From NCBI GenBank assembly GCA_022843845.1, contig JALHMW010000013.1, positions 1 through 64,000 of the forward strand: a stretch of 64,000 nucleotides of DNA. The letters run 5' to 3'. Within the stretch, counting starts at the first letter, position 1. Every line of letters begins with the position of its first letter. This document shows, piece after piece, positions 1-39,713 of the stretch. A program made the position numbers and the translations under genes. Source of the DNA: Archangium sp. (GTDB lineage Bacteria; Myxococcota; Myxococcia; Myxococcales; Myxococcaceae). The notes below the pieces were generated by a model. The model saw only the letters and a program-made list of their open reading frames with translations, was not told the origin of the DNA and did no database searches.

Positions 1-333
1 GCCAGCCGCTGCCCCGCCAGCCGAGCTCCCGCCAGCCGAGCCGCCGGCCGTGGAGCCACCACCCGTCGAGCCACCACCCGTGGCCGAACCGCCGCCCGTG
101 CCACTGCCACCCATGCACACGCCCGCCACGCAGCTCCCCGTGAGCGAGCACGCCACGCACGCATTGCCCTGAGATCCACACGCCATGCCCGTGGTGCCAG
201 CCTGACAGGTGCCGTCCGTCGAGCAGCAGCCCGCACACGAAGCCACCGAACACTTCGGCGCAGGAGAACCACACGCGAAACCAACCACCGACCCGACCGC
301 GAGGGCGGCCACGAACCAGAGCATCTTGCGCAT
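1..333 (-). CDS. Cys-rich lipoprotein with Gly/Ser/Ala-rich linker (partial, C-terminus beyond window)
   Basis: Manual translation of the reverse strand from CAT at 331-333: MRKMLWFVAALAVGSVVGFACGSPAPKCSVASCAGCCSTDGTCQAGTTGMACGSQGNACVACSLTGSCVAGVCMGGSGTGGGSATGGGSTGGG...; signal peptide/lipobox-like, open to the window edge. Confidence 0.75.
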   Translation of the reverse strand, partial: MRKMLWFVAALAVGSVVGFACGSPAPKCSVASCAGCCSTDGTCQAGTTGMACGSQGNACVACSLTGSCVAGVCMGGSGTGGGSATGGGSTGGGSTAGGSAGGSSAGGAAAG

Positions 334-30324: not shown

Positions 30325-31605
<1,281 letters not shown>

Positions 31606-31687
31606 GACTTCATCCACCCTAACCGGGGTTTCCTTGATGTGCGAGCGATGCACCGAGCCGGCTGAGCAGGCGTCAGCAACCTGACGG

Positions 31688-33247
31688 CTACCCGCAGGTG
31701 CCGACACCCGGGAAGCCACCGAGCGGTTGGCAGGTCCCGCTCGAACAGGTCGGCGCGTTCGGGTCGCAGAGATCCTGGCAGGCGAAGTTCATCGAGCCAC
31801 TCGGCGCCACGCAGGTGAGCCCCGCCGAGCAGCTGTTGGCGGCGGTGCAGGTGATGCCGACCGATTGCCAGCCCTCGGGGGCGCACACCGCACCGTTCGT
31901 CGTCGCGTAACAGGCAGCCACGCAGTCCTGCTTGAGCAGATCGCAGGCCTGACCGTTCAGCTTCAGACACACCTGAGCGCCGCTGCTCCACTGACAGCTC
32001 TCACCCGCGCCACAGGTCGACGAGGAGCCGCAGAGCCGTGCACAGAAGCCGATGGAGCTTCCGGTGCGTTGCTCACAGCGCGTTCCCTGGCTGCAGTCGG
32101 CGTTGGTGGCGCAGATCTCACCCGCGAGGCCCACGCCCGGCCTCTCGCAGACGCCAGCAGACGCCAGCGGGCTCGGGTAGCAGGCCAGCGAAGGATCGCT
32201 GCAGGCCCCTTGAAACGAGCAGGTCGGCGAACACGTGCGCCCATCGCCAGCCAGGTCGAACGGGCACTCACACGACACCTGCGAGGCCGTGAACTGATCG
32301 CACCTCGCGCGAGGATGACAGCCTCCGTTGTTCGTCGCGCACGCATCGACCACACACTGCGAGCCGACCCGCCTGAAGCCGGTCGCACAGTCACACGTCG
32401 CACCGGGCCTCTCGTTGCGGCACACCTCGTTGGCGCCGCAGCGCAGCGTCCCCCGGGCACACTCGTCGACGTCGACGCAGCCGAGCGTGGGGTGGCCTTC
32501 GGAGCCGCTCGGGCACGAACACGACGGGCCCGAGAAGCACGCGCTTCCGCACGTCGTCCCACCGCTGGAGCATCGACAGGTTCCTGACTGACACGTCGAA
32601 CCACTCGCGCGGCAGTCGGCGTTCGAGAAGCACCGGCGGGTGCAGGCGCGCGTCTCGGGATCGCAGCCAAAGTCGGCCGGGCACTGCGTCGCCAGGCAGT
32701 CGGTCGGCAGCGCTTCACAGCGCCCGGAGTTGCACACCAGGCCGGCCCCACACTGGTTGCCACATCGGCCGCAGTGGCTCTCGTCAGTGGCGAGATCGAC
32801 ACAGGCGTTGTTGCACTCGGTCGTCGTTCCCGCACAGCGCGAGCCCATCGCGGCCACGCCACCTCCCGCGCCGCCTGCACGCCCACCAGCAGCGCCTCCG
32901 GCCATCGACGTAGGGGCGGCACCTCCCGCTGACCCGCCACCGAGTCCGCCAGCCGTTGGCGCCGGCCCGGGGGTTCCCCGCCCTGCGCAGACGCCCACGG
33001 TGCACGTCTGATCGCTCTGACACGTCGAGCACGCCTGACCCGCGATGCCGCACGCTTCGCGGAACGTGCCGACCTGACACCGATCCATCGCGTCACAGCA
33101 GCCCGAGCACGTGGCCTGACACGAGTCGCGGAACGAGGGTCCACATCCGCTCGAGAGGAACAACGCGATGAAGAGCAGGACGACGGGGGCGCGCAGGCCC
33201 GACACGAGGGCACCGCACACCAGGTTCTTCGGGGTTTCGACGTTCAT
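31688..33247 (-). CDS. Cys-rich lipoprotein with EGF-like domains and Gly/Ala linker
   Basis: [101 protein letters not shown] (EGF-like). Confidence 0.8.
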
Positions 33248-33289
33248 GCCCGGTGAGTGGGAGCACCCACCGGGCATTTTGAAACGGAC

Positions 33290-33907
33290 TTATTTCTTCT
33301 CGGCCGTCGGCGGGGCGGGCTTCTTCTTCTCCATCACCTCGTCGATGAGGCCGTACTGCTTGGCCTCGAGCCCGCTCATGAAGAAGTCGCGATCGCAGTC
33401 CTGCTCGATGCGCTCGTAGGTGTGGCCCGTCGCCTTCCCGAGGATGTCGTAGAGCGCCTTGCGCAGGCGGACCATCTCGGCGACCTGAATCTCCATGTCC
33501 TTCGACTGACCGCGCGCACCACCGAGGGGCTGGTGAATCATCACGCGCGCGTTGGGCAGGGCGAACCGCTTGCCCTTCGCGCCCGCGCCGAGGAGCACCG
33601 CGCCCATCGACGCCGCCTGCCCGATGCAGATCGTCGACACCTGCGGCTTCACGTATTGCATGGTGTCGTAGATCGCGAGGCCGGCCGTCACCGAGCCGCC
33701 GGGCGAGTTGATGTAGATGCTGATGTCCTTGTCCGGGTCCTCCGACTCGAGGAACAGCAGCTGCGCGATGATGACGTTCGCTACGTCGTCATCGATCTCC
33801 GTGCCCATCATGATGATCCGGTCCTTCAGCAGGCGGCTGTAGATGTCGTACGACCGCTCGCCACGGTGGGTCTGCTCGACGACGTAGGGGACAGGCATGT
33901 AGGGCAT
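33290..33907 (-). CDS. clpP: ATP-dependent Clp protease proteolytic subunit
   Basis: [66 protein letters not shown]. Confidence 0.98.
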
Positions 33908-37581: not shown

Positions 37582-38604
37582 ATGTTCGAGAAGCTCATCC
37601 TCGTCACCCGCAAGACGCGCCTGCAGGGCCTCATCGAGCGCTTCAACACGCGCGCTCAGGCGAAGTTCTACCTGGAGCACGCGGGCCTCGACTTTGGCGA
37701 CTACGCGAAAGAGGACGACACGTATCGTCAGGCCGTCGACTTGCTCGAGGCGCAGCTCGAGGTCGGCCTGCCGGTGCAGCGCCTGGAGCGCTCGCTCCTG
37801 TCGACCTACCGCTTCGGCCCCGGCGATCTCGTCGTCGCCGCGGGCCAGGACGGGCTGGTCGCGAACACCGCCAAGTACATCGGCTCGCAGCCGCTCATCG
37901 GCGTGAACCCTGACCCGTCACGCTTCGACGGCAAGCTGCTCCCGTTCTCGGTCACGCAGGCCCGTGCCACCGTGACGCGAACGCTCGAAGGGAAGATGCC
38001 GCTCGCCGAGGTGACGCTCGCGCGCGCCCAGACGAGCGATGGTCAGACCTTGCTCGCCTTCAACGATCTCTTCATCGGCGAGGCGACCCACCAGTCGGCG
38101 CACTACCGCCTGCATGTGACTGAGGCCGCGAAGCCCGCGTCAGTCGAACGGCAGTCGTCCAGTGGCGTGATCGTCTCGACGGGCGCTGGCTCCACGGGCT
38201 GGCTGTCGTCGGTGCGCACGATGGCTGATCGCGTCGGCGCGTTCTTCGGAGGGCGGGCGATCTCTCCGCTGCAGATGCCGTGGAACGACCCGCGGCTCTT
38301 CTACGTGGTGCGCGAGCCGTTCGTGTCGAAGCACTCGCAGGCGACCAACGTGGTGGGCTGGCTGGAGGACTCGGCCCAGCTGCACATCGAGTCGCTGATG
38401 CCGCAATCGGGCACGATCTTCTCCGACGGGATGGAGGCCGACTGCCTGCGCTTCACCTCGGGAATGACGGTTCGGGTCGGGCCGGCGCCTCAGCGCGCAC
38501 GGCTCGTGGTGAGGCAGCCGCAGCTCCCTTTTGACGATCGCGTCGATCCACACACCGGACGGCTTCGACCAAAGGCCGTCTCCGTGGTTCAGTTCGGAGC
38601 ATGA
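37582..38604 (+). CDS. NAD kinase-like protein
   Basis: DLVVAAGQDGLVANTAKYIGSQPLIGVNPDPSRFDG; FNDLFIGEATHQSAHYRL; SSGVIVSTGAGSTGWLSS. Confidence 0.72.
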   Translation: MFEKLILVTRKTRLQGLIERFNTRAQAKFYLEHAGLDFGDYAKEDDTYRQAVDLLEAQLEVGLPVQRLERSLLSTYRFGPGDLVVAAGQDGLVANTAKYIGSQPLIGVNPDPSRFDGKLLPFSVTQARATVTRTLEGKMPLAEVTLARAQTSDGQTLLAFNDLFIGEATHQSAHYRLHVTEAAKPASVERQSSSGVIVSTGAGSTGWLSSVRTMADRVGAFFGGRAISPLQMPWNDPRLFYVVREPFVSKHSQATNVVGWLEDSAQLHIESLMPQSGTIFSDGMEADCLRFTSGMTVRVGPAPQRARLVVRQPQLPFDDRVDPHTGRLRPKAVSVVQFGA

Positions 38605-39713
38605 CCCGGTTCGCGATCGTCTCCCTGGCGGCAGTGCTCCTCAGCGCGTGCGGTACTCGCGGCACGTGCACCCAGGCCACCTGCATGGGCTGCTGCTCGA
38701 GAGACGATCGCTGCGTCACCGCGACCGACGCGACGGCGTGTGGACGAAATGGCTCGAGCTGCAACAGCTGCGCGGCTGGCCAGACGTGCAACGGCGGCGC
38801 GTGCAGCATCCCCGGGTCGACGGGCGGCGGCAGTGGAAACGGCGGTGGCGCCGCGATGGGTGGAGGCGCAGCGGTGGGCGGCGGAAACGCGGCAGGCGGC
38901 GGGAGCACCGCGGGCGGCACCGCGCAGGCCGGTGGCTCCGGAGGGGGAATGGCTGACCCCTGCTCCGACGACGCCAAGCTCGTCTACGTCGTCGACAGCA
39001 ACGGCACCTTCTCGAGCTTCAACCCGCGCCTCGCTGGCATGCCCGGAGCGTTCACCGACAAGGGCCGCCTCAACTGCCCTGCGAGCGGCGGCGCGCAGCC
39101 GTTCTCCATGGGCGTCGATCGCGACGCGAAGGCGTGGGTCGTCTACGGCAACGGAGAGCTCTTCCGGGTCGACGTGAACACCCTCGCCTGCTCCCGCATC
39201 GCAGTGATGAGCCCGAACGCCGCGAAGGTGTACGGCATGGGCTTCGTCACCGACACCGCGGGCGGCACCACCGACACGCTCTACATCGCGGGCAACGCGG
39301 TGAACTCGACGTTCACCAACAGCCAGTTCGGCACGCTCTCCACCACATCACCGTTCAACGTGACGCTCCGCGCGCAGCTCACCGGAGCGCCCGAGCTGAC
39401 CGGCACCGGAGACGCTCATCTGTGGGCGTTCTTCCCGAACCTCTCGCCACCGCTCGTGAGCGAGCTGAACAAGCAGAACGGCATGACGCTCCGCAGCTTC
39501 CAGGCGCCGACGTTGATGGGCCAACCGACCGCCTGGGCCTTCGCCTTCTGGGGTGGCGACTTCTGGATCTTCCTGCAGCGGCAGAACGAGACCTCGACGA
39601 CCGTCTACCGGATGAACGGAACGACCGGCGCGGTGACGACGCCGATTCCCAGCAGCGGCAGACGGATCGTGGGCGCGGGCGTGTCGACCTGCGCGCCCAT
39701 CATGATCGAGTGA
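38601..39713 (+). CDS. Cys-rich lipoprotein with Gly-rich linker and C-terminal beta-rich domain
   Basis: MTRFAIVSLAAVLLSACGTRGTCTQATCMGCCSRDDRCVTATDATACGRNGSSCNSCAAGQTCNGGACSIPGSTGGGSGNGGGAAMGGG; start overlaps the upstream stop (ATGA). Confidence 0.78.
   Translation: MTRFAIVSLAAVLLSACGTRGTCTQATCMGCCSRDDRCVTATDATACGRNGSSCNSCAAGQTCNGGACSIPGSTGGGSGNGGGAAMGGGAAVGGGNAAGGGSTAGGTAQAGGSGGGMADPCSDDAKLVYVVDSNGTFSSFNPRLAGMPGAFTDKGRLNCPASGGAQPFSMGVDRDAKAWVVYGNGELFRVDVNTLACSRIAVMSPNAAKVYGMGFVTDTAGGTTDTLYIAGNAVNSTFTNSQFGTLSTTSPFNVTLRAQLTGAPELTGTGDAHLWAFFPNLSPPLVSELNKQNGMTLRSFQAPTLMGQPTAWAFAFWGGDFWIFLQRQNETSTTVYRMNGTTGAVTTPIPSSGRRIVGAGVSTCAPIMIE

Follow-up and report, generated by a model that had tools for sequence, protein, structure and literature searches.

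In the M. xanthus receptor TraA, repeats of the TIGR04201 family (Myxo_Cys_RPT) have been proposed to form a rigid stalk that presents a PA14 domain (PMC3325183). Like the module described here, these are extracellular cysteine-rich repeats of myxobacteria. However, the TIGR04201 model has 22 positions and three invariant cysteines, in contrast to the ten cysteines of the module, and TraA has a type I signal and a MYXO-CTERM, whereas the module carriers have an N-terminal lipid; in NCBIfam, no module matched TIGR04201 at E values up to 10. Two further families, the STIG1-like repeats (PF04885) and the MXAN_6577-like family (NF041328), resemble the C-terminal half of the module (CG..G..C...C.....C..G.C), but are without its N-terminal C-x4-C-xG-CC part. 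None of 38 modules matched PF04885 in Pfam at E up to 10, and none matched NF041328 in NCBIfam. Similarly, knottins and heveins are small and disulfide-rich, with a cysteine order that includes a central CC, and knottins have the Cys1-Cys4 pairing that is proposed below for the module. The module differs from both in having ten cysteines, an extra C-terminal four-cysteine part, and a second loop of only 2-3 residues, and it differs from hevein in having no aromatic platform. No module matched hevein or chitin-binding type 1 domains in Pfam (E up to 10), and no solved knottin in the PDB was matched by Foldseek at E up to 10, which is a weak test for so small a fold. Cysteine-rich extracellular spacer modules are known already as a kind, and this probable member stands out by its unusual expansion within a lineage.

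The window, which is the whole stretch of 64,000 nucleotides that was analysed, contains three lipoprotein genes with such a module. A preliminary description had placed a ten-cysteine module in these three genes; it is present in each, in the frame and with the cysteine pattern given there. The features are:

38601-39713, + strand: module lipoprotein gene (the focal gene; open reading frame)
38601..38651, + strand: lipoprotein signal peptide up to the lipidated cysteine (LLSAC), with Gly at +2 (open reading frame; the HMM match starts at the lipid cysteine, 38649)
38667..38804, + strand: ten-cysteine module of the focal gene, Cys1-Cys10, 46 aa (HMM, alignment, AlphaFold2)
38805..38954, + strand: Gly/Ala/Ser-rich linker of the focal gene, 50 aa (sequence)
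38955..39710, + strand: C-terminal beta-propeller-like domain of the focal gene, 252 aa (AlphaFold2 and Foldseek)
31688..33277, - strand: second module lipoprotein, with module, Gly-rich linker, and STIG1-like and EGF domains
32987..33121, - strand: second ten-cysteine module, Cys1-Cys10, 45 aa (lipid cysteine at 33143-33145)
1..333, - strand: third module lipoprotein, truncated by the contig end
115..252, - strand: third ten-cysteine module, Cys1-Cys10, 46 aa (lipid cysteine at 271-273)

The gene at 1-333 is incomplete because the window begins at base 1 of the contig. In all three genes, the lipobox cysteine lies 6-8 residues ahead of the module (LLSAC, LSSGC, and GFAC) and a Gly/Ala/Ser-rich stretch follows it, and the parts further downstream differ. 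When the three modules are aligned with the lipid cysteine included, 20 of 59 columns are invariant, and all three fit the spacing of the wider family and have its glycines ahead of CC, following Cys6, and in CGxxG. The C-terminal domain of the focal gene was modelled by AlphaFold2 with a pLDDT of 87 and a pTM of 0.88, and its best Foldseek matches are beta-propellers (E about 1e-6, TM about 0.5).

These three modules are members of a large domain family, whose copies are far more numerous than chance would give. The Myxococcaceae genome from which the window comes (4.95 Mb, 86% complete) has about 70 copies: an HMM built from the three modules found 66 places in roughly 40 open frames, and a profile of 38 modules from the same genome found 74 matches there, while the six other genomes of the genus have 103-149 apiece. 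With the latter profile, 93 of the 195 Myxococcota genomes searched had at least one module. Several further genera of the same family have at least 30 modules per genome (35 candidates were scored per genome), and genera with genomes of 9-13 Mb, often in a single contig, have only 1-4. The named contigs that bear the motif are mostly from uncultured Myxococcaceae and Archangium-labelled metagenome assemblies. In controls, the family HMM found 386 domains in the fetched loci but none when those proteins were reversed, and of 2200 composition-shuffled modules not one reached 25 bits. When only the non-cysteine positions were shuffled, 19 of 2200 sequences scored at least 25 bits, compared with 372 of 440 real modules; therefore, glycines and other non-cysteine positions carry signal too.

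The spacing is thus conserved far beyond three genes, and the impression in the preliminary description that no named family was involved also held, as Pfam, NCBIfam, and PDB sequence searches with the module found no family. Foldseek searches of the module model against the PDB and a viral library gave no match, and no description of the module was found by literature searches. The family, unnamed in the libraries searched, is found in roughly one of every two Myxococcota genomes sampled and has expanded in one uncultured genus to more than 100 copies per genome. A weak PDB match (E 0.47), which fell on the hinge of a CAP protein, was taken as chance, and pattern matches in contigs of Prevotellaceae (L135) and Clostridiales (L104) were rejected, as they arise where repeats rich in proline and glutamine are read in another frame. 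One Chloroflexi-labelled locus (L101) is a lone weak member, and 1 of 151 genomes drawn from that phylum matches; this locus has two module-like units behind the leader MDADRFDGLLRALAASPSRR plus a lysine run.

Across 275 ten-cysteine copies, the consensus is C-x4-C-x(2,3)-CC-x(4,5)-C-x8-CG-x5-C-x2-C-x5-C-x4-C. The CG-x5-C-x2-C part is identical in all 275, even though the search pattern permitted x5-6 and x1-3 there, and the other loops are nearly as constant (x8 between Cys5 and Cys6 in 242 copies, x5 between Cys8 and Cys9 in 238, and x4 between Cys1 and Cys2 in 245). The core is 21.8% Cys, 0.0% Trp, 0.1% Tyr, and 0.1% His. Glycines are the only strongly conserved non-cysteine positions (99% before CC, 99% after Cys6, 93% at CGxxG, 83% at x2-G-x-C, and 78% after Cys5), and position-wise conservation revealed no conserved charged cluster in the module. 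From a 70-sequence alignment, the module was predicted by AlphaFold2 to be compact and beta-rich, with a mean pLDDT of 83.7 and a pTM of 0.61. It is probably an independently folding, disulfide-rich domain of 45-50 residues with oxidised cysteines. Comparison of the focal gene with its relative in another genome (L160) gave dN/dS values of 0.19 for the module and 0.20 for the propeller, and purifying selection on the two is therefore equal.

Variation among the cysteines is informative about their pairing. In some copies, nearly all in tandem arrays, Cys4 is replaced by Val, Leu, Ile, or another residue, and all of these copies are also without their own Cys1. Overall, 320 copies have both cysteines, 34 have neither, none has Cys1 only, and three have Cys4 without Cys1, each of these three having a cysteine slightly further upstream than the distance tested. 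Within tandem arrays there is no exception (73:0:0:30; Fisher p 1.2e-26, a value inflated by kinship between sequences), and clustering at 62% identity divides the copies without Cys4 into 26 groups. Array copies that lack Cys1 and Cys4 lie 3-6 residues behind the preceding module, compared with 7-15 for the others. Cys2, Cys3, Cys5, and Cys6 almost never vary. Because the two cysteines are lost together, the simple reading is that Cys1 and Cys4 are probably bonded to each other, as in inhibitor cystine knots; the remaining cysteines are presumably paired as well.

A lipobox is recognisable in 125 module-bearing open reading frames, and in 108 of these Cys1 lies 4-12 residues past the lipid cysteine (median 7 residues). 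The +2 residue is Gly in 71, Ser in 21, and Lys in 3. In M. xanthus, Lys at +2 marks inner-membrane lipoproteins (PMC3222651), and, because it is rare here, the carriers are likely to be outer-membrane lipoproteins, presumably at the cell surface, as far as can be judged from their signals. In the usual order, the lipobox is followed by about 7 residues, the module, a Gly/Ala/Ser/Thr linker, and varied domains; the first 40 residues past the first module have a median of 75% G/A/S/T, compared with 42.5% further downstream. Attached domains match EGF, CAP, VWA, FG-GAP, RCC1, kelch, C2, pre-peptidase C-terminal, and the CglB and CglD gliding lipoprotein types, as well as several enzyme families, including pectin acetylesterase and GHL10. 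STIG1-like repeats also share proteins with the module, for example downstream of it in the gene at 31688-33277. This layout of signal, linker, and variable C-terminus is common, but there are exceptions: many copies form tandem arrays of 2-22 modules, and some are located mid-protein or at the C-terminus. Two loci (L130 and L173) have long arrays, with as many as 22 modules, in which a shorter unit of four cysteines, CGxGxxCxxGQRCxxGxCV, alternates with the full module; this unit resembles the C-terminal half of the module.

Two of the attached domains are also found without the module. CglB (NF033757), a surface adhesin with a VWA domain, is a gliding lipoprotein of M. xanthus, and its VWA type is shared by paralogues in this genus that have the module. 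A CglB match above the family cut-off was present in 13 of 13 genomes checked. As in canonical CglB (CQTYDFEPV), the top-scoring copies run from the lipid cysteine directly into the VWA domain, with neither module nor Gly linker, whereas the CglB-type paralogues in this genus have both between lipid and VWA; one of these module-bearing paralogues exceeds the CglB equivalog cut-off (212 versus 200 bits). Similarly, the propeller of the focal gene is also seen with a diverged module (L097), and a more distant propeller relative sits on lipoproteins that have no module but a long linker of DAG/DAGR repeats (L232 and L233). This repeat linker looks like an alternative stalk in place of the module and Gly linker. 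Because the same VWA and propeller domains exist with and without it, the module is a plug-in part, and it is dispensable for carrying either domain. It is also a ready marker for surface lipoproteins of undescribed role, including paralogues of a gliding adhesin.

Since the module is compact, membrane-adjacent, devoid of an aromatic or charged patch, joined to many different heads, and stackable, it is best read as a rigid foot or stalk element. On balance, we lean towards a disulfide-locked rigid foot of outer-membrane lipoproteins, with the linker as tether, the C-terminal domain as the working part, and arrays as stalk. Placed directly on the lipid anchor, the module would form a rigid and probably protease-resistant foot; the Gly/Ala/Ser/Thr-rich linker would act as a flexible tether after it; and the variable C-terminal domain would perform adhesion, ligand binding, or hydrolysis. 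Where more reach is needed, stacked modules could serve as a stalk. As a spacer, the foot would set a distance between the cell surface and the varied domains that do the work, some of which resemble gliding adhesins. Such a role next to the anchor does not apply throughout the family, however, because some copies are mid-protein or C-terminal.

The main rival of the foot model is a folded export or sorting tag, which an outer-membrane translocon or surface-retention system would read so as to flip the lipoprotein to the surface. The nearly fixed distance to the lipid cysteine with Gly dominant at +2, the unrelated cargo domains that have the module in common, and the huge copy number in one genus all fit such a tag, but a receptor would find little to recognise, given the weak conservation of positions other than Cys and Gly, an address would not be expected to occur in tandem or internal copies, and canonical CglB is without the module although it is a reported surface lipoprotein (PMC12282271). 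We therefore regard a tag as unlikely, and its more specific form, a disulfide-dependent N-terminal address for surface flipping or retention that would be the counterpart of MYXO-CTERM, as rather unlikely. If true, a single genus would use one address tag for at least a hundred different cargoes.

The preliminary description had instead suggested a reusable surface-anchoring or adhesive cap. That the module is reusable, disulfide-rich, and linked to surface lipoproteins stands; that it anchors or adheres is not supported, as the lipidated cysteine does the anchoring and it is some of the attached domains that have an adhesin-like function. Hevein-type sugar binding relies on aromatic residues. 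A hevein- or lectin-like cap that binds carbohydrate, chitin, or protein would agree with the CC-x(4,5)-C motif and with the recognition or adhesin domains on many carriers, but it is disfavoured because the module is without aromatic or conserved charged surface residues; its position at the membrane end rather than the tip and the lack of a Pfam hevein match also speak against it, and we consider it quite improbable. The missing obvious binding surface is in itself compatible with binding partners. Very improbable is the binding of a metal or an iron-sulfur cluster in place of disulfides: CxxC and CC motifs are present, but the module is extracytoplasmic, after a lipobox, its ten near-invariant cysteines are accompanied by almost no His, and the loss of exactly two cysteines as a pair fits a disulfide. 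A question of ancestry, which fits the spacer role, is whether the module is a divergent branch of myxobacterial STIG1-like or other cysteine-rich stalk repeats. The C-G-x2-G-x2-C ... C-x5-C-x2-G-x-C pattern is common to its C-terminal half and the STIG1-like repeats, and hhalign aligned the two over 23 columns with 46% probability, but that alignment covers the C-terminal half only and the score is uncalibrated for cysteine-rich sequence, and the STIG1, TIGR04201, and MXAN_6577 models match no module. Such a descent is possible but doubtful.

A tractable test gene for the role of the module is offered by two Myxococcus-type genomes (L185 and L187; the genus label is probable), each of which has only one copy, fused to a C2-like domain in a lipoprotein. 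The match to C2 is firm for a distant relative (L077, E 1.9e-7), but that of the Myxococcus-type copy is weak (E 0.096). This single-copy lipoprotein has relatives in neighbouring genera.

In the window, the gene at 31688-33277 lies between clpP (33290-33907) and clpX (30325-31719), all on the - strand, and a further genome of the genus (L245) has this gene order too. clpP and clpX are often neighbours. The ATG of the focal gene (38601) overlaps the stop codon of a NAD-kinase-like gene at 37582-38604 (ATGA). A related genome within the genus has kept this pair (L231 and L160; the kinase is 83% identical), which suggests that the two genes are co-expressed.
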